Shown one piece after another: positions 6,466 to 63,302 of a stretch of 63,302 bases of DNA. The notes under the pieces were generated by a model, which did no database searches, was not told the origin of the DNA, and worked only from the letters and a program-made list of their open reading frames with translations. How positions within the stretch are numbered: position 1 is the first letter of the stretch; each line of letters begins with the position of its first letter. The DNA is taken from contig JAOTTS010000012.1 in assembly GCA_029864335.1 (NCBI GenBank), positions 1 to 63,302 of the forward strand, given 5' to 3'. Both the position numbers and the translations under genes were made by a program. The stretch comes from Candidatus Nitrosopumilus sp. (GTDB lineage Archaea > Thermoproteota > Nitrososphaeria > Nitrososphaerales > Nitrosopumilaceae).

Positions 6466-6909
6466 GGAAGTCCTTTTAATTCTTTGATGATCTCTTGATT
6501 TTTTGTTATCCTGTAGAATGGTTTGTTTCTAATGAAACTATCCATCGTAACGTTGTTTTTTACTTGACTTGCAAAACGAAATATATAATTAGTGATTTCC
6601 AAAAATGGAAACATATGCCTTAATTGAGGCGTGATCTATATAAGATTTTCTTATTTTTTCATATTAGAAAATTGTTGTTTCCAAATTAGGTAACAATATA
6701 TCCTGTTAGGAAATAAAAATATTTAGCCAAAGAAAAACGAACTTCACTGTTCTGTAATTCCTTTACAAGATTTCTTTGGCTATTTTTTCGTTATGTATGT
6801 TATCTAATGTTTTCAGCAAGAATTAGTTTATTCTGTTAAGATAAACATGTCTCTTATTTCTGTTCAATTGCTGTTAGTTCTAATGAAAACACTGTTGTTT
6901 TTTGGCATC
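6466..6909. other. Intergenic region upstream of glmS
   Basis: This 444-nt gap has no convincing reading frame. It contains several TTTCC/GGAAA dyads, for example a 6-bp hairpin around 6596-6611. It also holds the long inverted repeat described separately at 6724-6782. The glmS promoter must lie here on the minus strand, but I could not choose one TATA box with confidence. Confidence 0.4.
6724..6788 (+). ncRNA. Long inverted repeat followed by T-run (possible small RNA or terminator)
   Basis: TAGCCAAAGAAA at 6724-6735 and TTTCTTTGGCTA at 6771-6782 are perfect 12-bp reverse complements around a 35-nt loop. A small GAAC/GTTC hairpin lies inside the loop. A run of six T follows directly at 6783-6788 on the plus strand. 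This resembles a structured transcript with an intrinsic-type end. It could also be the terminal inverted repeats of a tiny element. There is no coding frame in it. Confidence 0.35.
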
Positions 6910-7866
6910 TTATTCACTTCCTAATTTATTTCTTAAAAAATAAATTCCAGAAATTACCATTGCTACTGAAAATATATCTATCATTCTAACCTCTTCAAAT
7001 AACAATAGATTAGAAAATATTATTCCAAATACTGCTGTAGTGGAGTACAAAAGAATTGTTCTAACTCCACCAATCAATTTAAGTGCCATGACAAAAAATA
7101 ATGTAGCTAATCCAATACCTGCAAATGCCATGATTGAAATTAATGGAATATCTTCTAGAGCGATATCAAATGGAATATCAAATATGATTAAAAGTAGTAA
7201 TGCAAAAAAGCCTGATATGAAAGAAGTTATTTGAGTTATTCTTTTTGCATCAATCTTATCGCTTACATATTTGCATATATTCACTTCAACAGCATAAAAT
7301 AAACCTGATAAGATTATAAAAATATCTCCGAATAGTAAAGATGATATATTCATATCCTTTTCATATAGATCATATGTAACAGGCAAAATAATTATTCCAA
7401 ATACTATCATTAAAAAAGGAAATAATTCTTTTTTTTGTAATCTTTCTCGAAAAACTATCATTATAATTAATAATGAAAAAATAATTTCTCCATTACTAAA
7501 TATCGATGCATTAATTGCTGTAGATTCCTTTAATCCAAAAAAATATAAAATTAGAGCAGATACCTCAGCTATTCCTACAAGCGATAATAACAATAAATTT
7601 TTCTTACCCATGTATCGTATGGGTATACTATTTCTTCTTGCAATTGGTGTAAAAAATAACCCATTTAAAATATACACACATACTGCAAGAGCTATGGGGT
7701 TTATTCCTTGTATTCCAATATGATCTTCAGTAATTGGTGTACCGAGCATGGGTTTTGCTATAACATGAATAAATGCATAGAGCACTGCTGACAATATGAT
7801 TAACACATATCCTAACCGTACTGATTTTGTAGAATTTACTTGGCAAATCTTTGTTTGTATCTTCAC
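6910..7866 (-). CDS. EamA/DMT-superfamily permease
   Basis: The 318-residue protein has ten hydrophobic helices arranged as two EamA-type repeats. Repeat motifs include the proline-containing first helix (IHVIAKPML) and ESTAINASIFSNGEIIFSLLI in the first half, and the matching GGVRTILLYSTTAVFGIIFSNLLLF in the second. Drug/metabolite transporters of this class export small metabolites, but the substrate cannot be predicted. The first 20 residues are polar and Lys-rich. It lies downstream of nothing on its own strand. Confidence 0.8.
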   Translation of the reverse strand: MKIQTKICQVNSTKSVRLGYVLIILSAVLYAFIHVIAKPMLGTPITEDHIGIQGINPIALAVCVYILNGLFFTPIARRNSIPIRYMGKKNLLLLSLVGIAEVSALILYFFGLKESTAINASIFSNGEIIFSLLIIMIVFRERLQKKELFPFLMIVFGIIILPVTYDLYEKDMNISSLLFGDIFIILSGLFYAVEVNICKYVSDKIDAKRITQITSFISGFFALLLLIIFDIPFDIALEDIPLISIMAFAGIGLATLFFVMALKLIGGVRTILLYSTTAVFGIIFSNLLLFEEVRMIDIFSVAMVISGIYFLRNKLGSE

Positions 7867-17399: not shown

Positions 17400-17984
17400 T
17401 TAGTTCACTGTAACACTTCCGACCATCCAAGGATGAACCATACAGAAGTAATCATAGTTGCCTGAATCATTAAAGGTAAATGCAAATTCTGCACCTGCCA
17501 TGACTAGACTACTATCAAATACACCAGATGGGCCGTCTGCTGGGCTGCCACCAGTTACTGTATGAGCAGCCGAGTCTATGTTAACCCAATTCACTGTATC
17601 TCCAGCATTAATTGTAATATCTGCTGGTGAGTAACATGCATTAGATTCTTCACATCCTGGAACCGAAGTACCTACTGGAATATCAACAGTATGTGTTGTT
17701 GGTCCTGTTTTAGCTTCAGCTGCCATAGCTTTTTCAGCTGCCATAGCTTTTTCAGCTGCCATAGCTTTTTCAGCTGCCATAGCTTTTTCAGCTGCCATAG
17801 CTTTTTCAGCTGCCATAGCTTTTTCAGCTGCCATAGCTTTTTCAGCTGTTTCAACTTTAGGTGAAATAGCTGGAGAAGTTGAAACTGGACCGGCATCTTG
17901 AACTCCACCCATGTAGAATGCAAATCCTACACCGATAGCTACAATTGCGATAGAAAACCCAATTGCAGCTGTGTCTATACCTGC
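17400..17984 (-). CDS. Membrane-anchored cupredoxin (plastocyanin-like) with AEKAMA repeats
   Basis: This is a blue-copper electron carrier, abundant in ammonia-oxidizing archaea where it may replace cytochrome c. The N-terminal hydrophobic anchor (IGFSIAIVAIGVGFAFYMGG) is followed by a linker with seven AEKAMA repeats. The cupredoxin domain comes next: His in SAAHTVTGG, and the Cys-x3-His-x2-Met cluster in YFCMVHPWM near the end. I chose the ATG at 17984, giving MAGIDTAA, over one six codons upstream. A TTATAT box about 20 nt upstream of 17984 leaves no room for the longer form. It converges with uvrC. Confidence 0.9.
   Translation of the reverse strand, partial: AGIDTAAIGFSIAIVAIGVGFAFYMGGVQDAGPVSTSPAISPKVETAEKAMAAEKAMAAEKAMAAEKAMAAEKAMAAEKAMAAEKAMAAEAKTGPTTHTVDIPVGTSVPGCEESNACYSPADITINAGDTVNWVNIDSAAHTVTGGSPADGPSGVFDSSLVMAGAEFAFTFNDSGNYDYFCMVHPWMVGSVTVN
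17717..17848. repeat. 18-bp in-frame minisatellite in the cupredoxin linker
   Basis: Seven near-identical 18-bp units (CAGCTGCCATAGCTTTTT on the plus strand) lie head to tail, then a 6-nt partial unit. They encode the AEKAMA linker. Identity at the DNA level, not only the protein level, points to recent copy-number change by slippage. Confidence 0.95.
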
Positions 17985-59529: not shown

Positions 59530-60403
59530 ATTGAACAAACCTAGAGAACTGGACTATATCGCCAAAAAGAGACTTGAATCAAAGGCATTCAAGAATTTCA
59601 TCCGAGGATCCAAAATGATACTACAAAGGCAGACTATACAGAATGGCTTAGAAATGACATTATGAAATTCGCCTTTGCTGAAAAAATCATATCTGAACCA
59701 GAGGCATACGATGAACTAATCAAACTGGATGAAGAGCAAATAACTGATTTTCTGCTAGATTGGATTGACTACAAGAAAGACCAAGGAGTCAAGGCTAAAA
59801 CCATTGCCACAAAGATTTCTTCAGTTGAAATTTTCTTTGATATGAATAGGAAACTATTCCACAGAAAACTAGTTAGAAAAACCATTGACAGGGATGATAC
59901 TCCAATTGGTGGTGGTGTGTCATTTACAGATGATAACATAAAACATATGTTGTCTGTTACCAAATCTCTTAGAAACAGGGCTCTGATTCATTTCTTTGCT
60001 AGTACTGGAACTAGACCTGGTGCATTGATTGATCCAATACTTTGTATCAAACATTTGGTAGAAATGCCACACCCAAAAAACCCTGCAATACAAAAATGGT
60101 GTTATGGTGTAAAAATTTATGATGAATCACGAGATGCATATTGGGTTTTTTTGACACCTGAAGCTATCGCATCATTGGATAAGTATCTTGAATATAGAAC
60201 CACAAAAGGTGAAATTTTGAACAAGGAATCATATTTGTTTGCAACTGAAAATTCACAAACAAGAAAAAAGCATATCTTAATGATATTGGTTGCAGAAAAA
60301 TCATGTAAAGAATTTTGGAACTGGCGGGAGTAAAACGAATCAAAGTAGGACAAAGATTCAATAAATCTACCATGTATGGATTTAGAAAAAAATTCAATGG
60401 CAA
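59530..60403 (+). pseudogene. Decayed tyrosine integrase (XerC/D-like, Nitrososphaerota type)
   Basis: The N-terminal part reads DPLNKPRELDYIAKKRL and RGSK. A missing A near 59613 shifts the frame into DYTEWLRNDIMKF, the SAM-like core-binding domain. The catalytic domain then shows the first Arg (STGTRPGAL). A second shift lies near 60267, and a TAA at about 60307 interrupts IM-[stop]-RILELAGVKRIKVG. The last recognisable piece is STMYGFRKKFN, where the protein breaks off before the catalytic H/R and Tyr. The longest intact piece is 59662-60333. At least three lesions make it inactive. Confidence 0.75.
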
Positions 60404-60594
60404 ATGATGATGAAATTGCTCTAAACAAAGCAAAGCGGGAACTTGATAACTATGGCTATTATGAAATTGAATCAATAGAATCGCTTGGCAAAAACACCAC
60501 AGTAATTGCCAATACTGGATCTTTGGAAATTGCCATAGACATTGACAATAAAACTGGGAAAACACTCAGCAAAGAAAAGATTGCAAGGCAATGA
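60400..60594 (+). CDS. Small protein, PepSY-like strand pattern
   Basis: About 64 residues run from the ATG at 60400 (MANDDEIALNKAKRELDN). That is a helix followed by strands YYEIESIESLGKNTTVIANTG and SLEIAIDIDNKTGKTLSKEK. A helix and three strands with I-D-x-x-T-G in the last turn recall PepSY domains, but this is a loose match. The frame extends upstream into the integrase remnant. The function is unknown. Confidence 0.5.
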   Translation, partial: ANDDEIALNKAKRELDNYGYYEIESIESLGKNTTVIANTGSLEIAIDIDNKTGKTLSKEKIARQ

Positions 60595-60660
60595 CATGAT
60601 TTCAAGTTATTTGAAAATTTGTGTAATGAAATTAAAACATGATGAAATTTTTTGAATTGT

Positions 60661-61104: not shown

Positions 61105-61209
61105 GTCACTTATAGATTAAATAAATATTTAAAAATATTGTGTAAATCTTTATGAATATGAAGTATTTTCAGAATCTATATTATATTCATCTAATTGTAA
61201 TAAAAATTG

Positions 61210-61929
61210 ATGACTCTATTGTTAATGACAGATCCAGTGTTGGAAAAAATTCAGAATCATTTTGAGAGTATGGGATTACAATCATCAATAGTTGATGAAA
61301 AACTGGATTTTGAACTAGACTACAAAGATGTGCATTTCATGGATGGAAAAAATGGGATTGGCACTGCAGGCTCGTTGAGACTGAAAGATTCCCCTATTGA
61401 TTATCTACATATTATCAAGAAGCAGGAATATGCAAAATGTGATTTTGCCGTGGGCGGCCATGTGGGAATGGGGGTTCACATTCATTCTTGGTATAAGATG
61501 CGATTCTTTCTTTCATTTCCTGAATCAATAAAATTGGGGCCATTTGATATGGGGACCCTTACAACAATTAAAAAAGGATTATTGCATTCAGAAGTTGAAA
61601 GTTTTGCCTGGAACGGTTACCAAAAACTAACCACCTTGCCACCAGGATTGGTGCGAGATAATGTAGCTGAAGCATTGTATTCTGATAAAATATTGAAAAA
61701 ATTAATGATGAAATGTTTACTAAAAGAAAGAACTATTACTGTTTCTAGATACTCTCCAACGATACCTGTTGAAGTTACAGCAAAACCCACAAACTCAAAA
61801 ATCAAAATAGAATCAACATGGAAACTTCAAAAGGATATGTTCATAGATAAAGATACATTGGACATGTATGAAATACTTGCAGGAATTGTTAAATCCACAG
61901 TAAACACTCTAAAGTATCATTTAAAATAA
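61210..61929 (+). CDS. Hypothetical protein
   Basis: The 239-residue soluble protein has a likely alpha/beta start (ILK-free LLLMTDPVLEKIQNHF), a Gly/His-rich middle (VGGHVGMGVHIHSWYKMRFFL) and a final helical part. The His-x-His pair could bind a metal. The ATG at 61210 lies about 25 nt downstream of a TATATTATATT box, so I prefer it to the TTG one codon upstream. I do not recognise the family. It is divergent from the Lrp-type regulator and may be its target. Confidence 0.6.
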   Translation: MTLLLMTDPVLEKIQNHFESMGLQSSIVDEKLDFELDYKDVHFMDGKNGIGTAGSLRLKDSPIDYLHIIKKQEYAKCDFAVGGHVGMGVHIHSWYKMRFFLSFPESIKLGPFDMGTLTTIKKGLLHSEVESFAWNGYQKLTTLPPGLVRDNVAEALYSDKILKKLMMKCLLKERTITVSRYSPTIPVEVTAKPTNSKIKIESTWKLQKDMFIDKDTLDMYEILAGIVKSTVNTLKYHLK

Positions 61930-62162: not shown

Positions 62163-62312
62163 TTAATAATCTAAAGGATTCGAATGCATTGGCATCAACT
62201 CACATTTGCAATTCTCTCTTTTGCCACATTTGGGACAATTACAATCACAAAGTAACAATGATGAATTACATCCAATACACTTTGTATATTCAGCATAATC
62301 TTCCTCATCCAT
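62163..62312 (-). CDS. Tiny Cys-rich zinc protein
   Basis: The 49-residue frame begins MDEEDYAEYTKCIGCNSS and continues with CDCNCPKCGKRENCKC, nine Cys in pairs suited to two zinc sites. It starts only 7 nt from the divergent Cas1-like gene, so its coding region covers the place where a cas1 promoter or the missing cas1 N-terminus would be. The family is not recognised. Confidence 0.55.
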   Translation of the reverse strand: MDEEDYAEYTKCIGCNSSLLLCDCNCPKCGKRENCKCELMPMHSNPLDY

Positions 62313-62319
62313 CCCAAGT

Positions 62320-62961
62320 ATGATTAAGTCAAACTCTAGAAACTACAATGCATCAGATGAGATCAATGCTTTATTGAATTATGGTTATGCAATTTTAGAA
62401 TCAGAGATTAGAAAATTAATCAATGGAACAGGATTAGATTATTCAATTGGATTCTTGCATGAGATTAACCAGAGTAGAACTTCCTTGGTATATGATATTC
62501 AGGAGTTGTTTAGATGGTTGATTGATTTATCAGTGATACAATTACTAGAAGAGAGGAAGATCAAGAAATCTGATTTTATCATTACAGAGAATTATCACAC
62601 CAGATTGGGAGAAGATGTTGCAAAAATGTTGATAGAAAAAATTAATTCAAATTTCAATGTCAAATCTAATTACAAAAACAACAAAAATTATTCCTATCAA
62701 ACTATACTTCAAGACAACATGCAACAATTATCAAACCATATTTTGAAGAAAAAACAAAAAATGGATTTTAACATACCTTTGATGAAATTGGATAGAAAAG
62801 ACAATCTGAAACTAAAAGAAAAGATTTTGAATATGACTCCTGAAGAAAGAAAACAATTAGGAGTCAACAAGTCCACGCTATGGCATATGCAGAACAATTT
62901 GAAAAAAGGGAAAACGATCGATCTTTATGATAAAGTTCTTTCAAAAATTCAAATCAACTAA
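62320..62961 (+). CDS. cas1: Cas1 catalytic (C-terminal) domain, lacking the N-terminal beta domain
   Basis: Cas1 is the integrase that inserts spacers into CRISPR arrays. These 213 residues start at the beginning of the helical catalytic domain: INALLNYGYAILESEI (catalytic Glu27), IGFLHEINQSRTSLVYDIQELFRW (His47 and Glu62), all three at family positions. The C-terminus (NMTPEERKQLGVNKSTLWHMQ) is the small helix-turn-helix tail seen in archaeal Cas1. About 80-100 N-terminal residues for dimerization and Cas2 contact are absent. An in-frame TAA at 62296 closes the frame upstream. No other cas gene is in the window. The tandem array starts 42 nt after its stop. Confidence 0.88.
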   Translation: MIKSNSRNYNASDEINALLNYGYAILESEIRKLINGTGLDYSIGFLHEINQSRTSLVYDIQELFRWLIDLSVIQLLEERKIKKSDFIITENYHTRLGEDVAKMLIEKINSNFNVKSNYKNNKNYSYQTILQDNMQQLSNHILKKKQKMDFNIPLMKLDRKDNLKLKEKILNMTPEERKQLGVNKSTLWHMQNNLKKGKTIDLYDKVLSKIQIN

Positions 62962-63003
62962 GTGATTTTTTTTCGAAACATTTTTGAATTTGACTTCTAT
63001 AAG

Positions 63004-63302
63004 CATCGACAAAATCTTGTGGAAACTCTTGTCGATTCTGTAGAGTCATCGACAAAATCTTGTGGAAACTCTTGTCGATTCTGTAGAGTCATCGACAAAA
63101 TCTTGTGGAAACTCTTGTCGATTCTGTAGAGTCATCGACAAAATCTTGTGGAAACTCTTGTCGATTCTGTAGAGTCATCGACAAAATCTTGTGGAAACTC
63201 TTGTCGATTCTGTAGAGTCATCGACAAAATCTTGTGGAAACTCTTGTCGATTCTGTAGAGTCATCGACAAAATCTTGTGGAAACTCTTGTCGATTCTGTA
63301 GA
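63004..63302. repeat. Perfect 43-bp tandem array with internal palindrome
   Basis: Seven head-to-tail copies begin at 63004, 63047, 63090, 63133, 63176, 63219 and 63262. The last is cut 2 nt short by the window end. All copies look identical. Each contains ATCGACAA and TTGTCGAT, a perfect 8-bp inverted pair separated by 16 nt; read across the unit border, the same arms are separated by 11 nt. There are no variable spacers, so it is not a normal CRISPR array. The 42-nt stretch before it ends in a sequence (CTTCTATAAG) resembling the unit's TTCTGTAGAGT. Confidence 0.97.

Follow-up and report, generated by a model that had tools for sequence, protein, structure and literature searches.

The right end of the window, by which we mean the whole 63,302-bp stretch analysed (contig C2 of the 58-contig, Nitrosopumilus-like source genome, G000), holds what is most probably a decayed family-2-type casposon, in which a casposase-adjacent and possibly iteron-like repeat array has survived its dead integrase. 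We put this reading at roughly three chances in four. The locus itself is ordinary casposon decay; what was unexpected is that casposases of this family and perfect repeat arrays are associated recurrently.

An open reading frame close to the window's end had been read as a 213-residue Cas1-type protein, and it does match the Cas1 profile (Pfam PF01867, E=2e-28). Its full-length relatives run to ~410 aa with a C-terminal helix-turn-helix (HTH), and their profile aligns over the whole length, HTH included, with the M. mazei casposase (6OPM, E=4e-100), CRISPR Cas1 following far behind. The active site of the M. mazei enzyme, E162/H232/E247 (PMC6977970), aligns to E172/H246/E261 of these relatives. 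The fragment begins downstream of the catalytic Glu (E172); on alignment to the relatives and to 6OPM, neither that residue nor the N-terminal domain is present in the window protein. Three residues, Glu27, His47 and Glu62, had been said to be in place: the latter two are indeed active-site residues, but Glu27 is conserved without belonging to the active site. Nor is the protein simply the helical half of Cas1, as had been proposed, since it is without the helix bearing the catalytic Glu and has a casposase HTH tail besides. That tail, aligned to 6OPM, is present in the fragment and its relatives, and the compact, HTH-less Cas1 of family 1 is not what they have; a C-terminal HTH on Cas1 is specific to family 2 casposons (PMC4046053), and the M. 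mazei casposase is reported to lose integration when nothing but the HTH is deleted (PMC6977970). The sequence-only reading had casposases in mind as a known precedent, and the HTH tail and 6OPM match make this Cas1 family a casposase family in fact. As far as alignment tells, the fragment is the 5'-truncated, dead 3' end of a family-2-type casposase gene.

Table 1. Features of the casposon remnant and the adjoining host DNA (positions in the window)
Feature	Position	Strand	Remarks
Host gene, 240 aa, left of the cas1 remnant	61207..61929	+	Collinear with G154
Small CxxC (zinc-ribbon-like) host gene, conserved start; final host sequence before the remnant	62202..62309	-	
Junction of host DNA and casposon remnant	62310..62325	.	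Host homology to 62309, cas1 homology from 62326
5'-truncated casposase (cas1) gene, 213 codons: C-terminal portion of the Cas1 domain, and HTH tail	62320..62961	+	
Codon His47, equal to H246 of full-length relatives and H232 of M. mazei casposase	62458..62460	+	Alignments
Codon Glu62, equal to E261 of full-length relatives and E247 of M. mazei casposase	62503..62505	+	Alignments
C-terminal HTH tail, family 2 casposase type	62806..62958	+	Aligned to 6OPM HTH; PMC4046053
42-bp 3' flank, in part common to G157 (TTTTTGAATTTRACTTCT)	62962..63003	+	
43-bp tandem array, perfect, at least 6.95 units	63004..63302	+	Cut by the contig end

The join between fragment and host DNA can be placed at 62310-62325, because the host genes to its left are collinear with those of G154 up to 62309 (where G154 continues without cas1) and homology to cas1 starts at 62326. 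DNA resembling the start of the small CxxC gene occurs in G154, G102, G120, G134 and G151, and the likeness stops at 62308-62309. The 240-aa host gene has a paralog on contig C32 (93%). Farther left in the window there is a truncated tyrosine-recombinase-like gene (59662-60333; phrog_1, E=1e-4) and, near it, a 240-bp stretch (60384-60621) with 91% identity to DNA inside the G174 casposon array that is described below. The window also has a second perfect array (17715-17848, 18 bp x7.4), which is probably coding, its period being divisible by three.

The structure of the parent element can be read from its intact relatives, whose termini have the form GGGGATATAGTTA-n16-ACCCACGTG. There are 27 such sites in G000, and the pattern is matched in 17 of the 95 genomes of the genus, and the reversed pattern, run as a control, gave a single match among the genomes listed. 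(One genome, G150, has 56 matches.) No terminal repeat was seen in the window, whose right end is cut; the place expected for it lies past the contig end. The closed genome G174 (OX638319.1) has five casposons head to tail at 1415231-1497948 (L066-L070); an identical 14-bp duplication, AATAACATTGTGCT, stands at every junction with inverted termini on both sides, and a tRNA-like 3' end marks the start of the series. In G098 a casposon terminus comes after a recognised tRNA-Glu. M. mazei casposon ends begin GGGATATAG, and the duplication there is also of 14 bp (PMC10359463, PMC6977970). One G174 element has HNH-like and HTH genes together with a gene for a 944-aa protein with polymerase-like motifs; the HNH nuclease assignment is a weak profile match in that one element (phrog_8048, E=8e-4), and the 944-aa protein found no support in Pfam, PHROG or PDB, its predicted structure (mean pLDDT 31) being uninformative. 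HTH-bearing Cas1, terminal repeats and 14-bp target duplications place the parent among the family 2 casposons; for the PolB with a C-terminal HTH that marks this family, the 944-aa protein is a candidate by its motifs. Past the polymerase-like gene of L069 there lies a small gene (6528-6989) with 7-residue repeats (GMIENST), and other copies have degenerate ~21-bp repeats like those of this gene ~5.5 kb upstream of their cas1. A search of viral contigs for more casposases gave one weak partial match.

Casposon debris is widespread in the source genome. Nine places in G000 hold pieces of the casposase gene or its relatives; cas1 pieces with differing truncation points are on contigs C33 (cut by the contig end), C52, C38, C50, C58, C48 and C53, and debris of one kind or another (cas1 and polymerase-like pieces) is on these and on C3, C7, C27, C40 and C22. 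On C38 (478-1451) a piece of each kind, cas1 and polymerase-like, lie next to each other. There is also a second, family-1-like casposase, with an apparently full-length gene on C44 (L001) and, at C49 65315-66100 (L006), an N-terminal piece that reads on in frame into part of a B-family polymerase. That no Cas2 gene is visible to the left of the fragment had already been observed, and the statement can be widened: Cas2 was not detected anywhere in G000 at the search threshold, at which the control matched in 7 of 14 genomes.

The array begins 42 bp past the cas1 stop codon, as first described, and keeps an exact 43-bp period through 299 bp with zero mismatches. The seven identical units of the original description are identical indeed; their number, 6.95 as assembled, is a minimum, because contig C2 ends inside the array. 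The exact period leaves no variable spacers in it. The unit has a single location in G000, the array, and it was absent from the viral contigs. Its dyad is insignificant against shuffles (p about 0.19) and its RNA fold is unremarkable (z=-1.0). Rfam matches were at chance level, giving no identity as a known RNA element, and derivation from a G162 host gene (81% over 47 bp; L042), which is not near cas1, is unconvincing.

A unit 100% identical to that of the window is found in G157, a different species, 29 bp past an intact 413-aa casposase, which shows that the array belongs to the casposon lineage. The G157 casposase being full-length, a truncated Cas1 is not the form that goes with the array. 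In G157, too, the array is at a contig end, and its assembled stretch is exactly 127 bp. This is a usual k-mer length, and the stretch looks like an assembler limit. The far side of the array is absent from the G000 and G157 assemblies alike. The two cas1 genes differ at ~22% of bases and are saturated at synonymous sites (dS about 1.8); that the unit is identical nevertheless is explained neither by slow divergence nor by slippage alone, and calls for strong constraint or a recent exchange. Such an exchange is plausible, since G000 shares near-identical casposon DNA with yet another genome: 5.5 kb of casposon on C33 (L078) is 99.95% identical to G155:C74 (L098) in two species, which, to judge from that identity, is recent transfer. 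Strong constraint or a chimeric assembly is possible.

Arrays recur beside other casposases of this family. Counting distinct gene ends at loci fetched around cas1 (the window and G157 having one array in common), a perfect array is found no more than 350 bp downstream at 5 of 48 casposase gene ends of the family versus 1 of 772 other genes (Fisher p=3e-6), for a period of 18-60, at least 2.8 copies and at least 95% match, criteria that were fixed only after the first examples had been seen. The association of a solo Cas1 with spacer-free perfect repeats, originally noted at this one locus, is borne out by that enrichment. No arrays occur at the 39 genes of the other casposase/Cas1 type (versus 5/48, p=0.046). 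Downstream of cas1 there are 22-bp arrays in G138 (x3.7 and x6.9) and G037 (x6.6) and 32-bp arrays in G155:C302 (x4.7 and x3.1); in G180 a 22-bp array (x6.3) is immediately upstream. The arrays of these four genomes are unrelated in sequence and all internal to contigs. The five carriers look independent and are spread across the casposase family tree, and judged from this scatter the arrays probably had multiple separate origins. An array is not essential, being absent from 43 of the 48. At 22, 32 and 43 bp, the units all come close to a whole number of helical turns, a regularity that was spotted post hoc. A palindrome was tried and rejected as the feature common to all arrays, since the 22-bp units, like the 43-bp unit, are without a significant dyad. 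The array-less 3' flanks show neither helical periodicity nor general repeat richness; a motif that recurs among them (e.g. L050, L051, L024 and L143) is AGGCACG with a dyad such as GTTCAGAAACTGAAC after it, at 60-100 bp past cas1.

A match to the Cas1 profile with an array close by is what one would expect of a CRISPR-Cas locus decayed to a Cas1 fragment, its array collapsed to a single repeat-spacer unit, and this was one of the two interpretations offered by the sequence-only reading. It is now scarcely credible: the genome is without detectable Cas2, the array without spacer variation, the HTH tail and the best match are those of a casposase, and the relatives have terminal repeats and 14-bp target duplications at tRNA ends. 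The other interpretation made the fragment a minimal Cas1 at work on its own repeats, whose units it would duplicate with no capture of DNA. Its frame is in fact open over 213 codons and, at a dN/dS of about 0.06-0.10 versus relatives, largely conserved, and the enrichment of arrays beside the gene family can be cited in its favour; however, a recent truncation would also give low dN/dS, the intact gene of G157 bears the same array, and G000 has several further pieces truncated at other points. Since the fragment is also missing its N-terminal domain and catalytic Glu, an active module of this kind is very improbable.

Full-length casposases could themselves be the builders or keepers of the arrays, by nicking a favoured site next to their gene, with fill-in duplicating that site over and over. 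Arrays of unrelated sequence do recur at this family and are missing from the 39 genes of the other type, a contrast that gives only p=0.046; on the other hand, the known casposase duplication is of 14 bp (PMC6977970; G174), not 22, 32 or 43 bp, and the units resemble neither the terminal repeat nor the target site. We consider such a role improbable, and slightly more doubtful again its fuller version, in which integrase activity makes or maintains spacer-free arrays at the casposase's own gene as intermediates on the way from transposon target to CRISPR, the window array having outlived its casposase. There is, finally, the deflationary possibility that the array has nothing to do with the casposon, being an incidental satellite or in part an artefact of assembly. 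The arrays of the window and G157 are both at contig ends, the G157 stretch has exactly a k-mer's length and the array criteria postdate the first examples. We nevertheless regard this as unlikely, given that every array adjoins a unique flank of its own, that those of G138, G037, G155 and G180 are internal to contigs, and that the enrichment at the gene family is strong (p=3e-6).

The preferred reading, a decayed casposon with a surviving array, has its closest parallel in the family 2 casposons MetMaz-C1 of M. mazei, AciBoo-C1 of Aciduliprofundum and NitNCS1-C1 of Nitrosotalea, which likewise have Cas1 with a C-terminal HTH, HNH-like and HTH genes, terminal repeats starting GGGATATAG / GGGGATATAG, 14-bp duplication at tRNA 3' ends, and tandem insertion. 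They differ in that the window has just a dead piece of the integrase gene and that the Nitrosopumilus elements are multi-copy, in arrays of at least five. The casposon literature searched makes no mention of short perfect repeat arrays next to the casposase gene. The family 1 casposons of Nitrosopumilus (NitAR1-C1, NitNF5-C1) are also solo Cas1 transposons of the same hosts, and G000 has such genes (C44, C49), but their Cas1 is compact and HTH-less, they have a protein-primed PolB and often an ef-2 target, and arrays are at 0/39 of their gene ends. With the CRISPR-Cas adaptation module the window has in common the Cas1 fold and a repeat array close by, whereas Cas2, spacers and a leader are absent from it and its Cas1 is without one active-site residue. 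The iteron arrays of plasmids and other replicons are similar in being short perfect tandem repeats with units of near-helical-turn length adjoining the gene for the element's DNA-binding protein; unlike them, the present arrays occur in a minority of elements and are candidates by unit length and position alone.

The following sequence of events would account for the locus; its element structure is that seen in the relatives and its enzymology is carried over from the M. mazei casposase. The intact relatives are DNA transposons whose full-length Cas1-HTH integrase would join the GGGGATATAGTTA...ACCCACGTG ends to a site of ~14 bp at the 3' end of a tRNA; insertion into that site time after time would generate head-to-tail casposon arrays. 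In the window, deletion or rearrangement appears to have removed all of the element that lay to the left of the remnant, which thereby came to adjoin host genes, as the comparison with G154 shows. The 43-bp array would be an older part of the casposon and not a product of the fragment, the same unit following the intact casposase of G157. Arrays most likely arise by tandem amplification of a short casposase-adjacent stretch, through slippage or unequal recombination. Their recurrence and their near-helical-turn units suggest an iteron-like site, and the array may, tentatively, serve an HTH protein or replication of the element in that capacity.

CRISPR adaptation has been proposed to derive from casposons, and it is an open question how the target of a transposon turned into a repeat array. 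The head-to-tail casposons that these genomes have at tRNA genes, at least five of them in the closed genome G174, are a large-scale structural analogue of a CRISPR array. A casposase family that is found repeatedly beside unrelated, spacer-free arrays offers natural loci for asking what builds repeats: the enzyme, replication or plain slippage.
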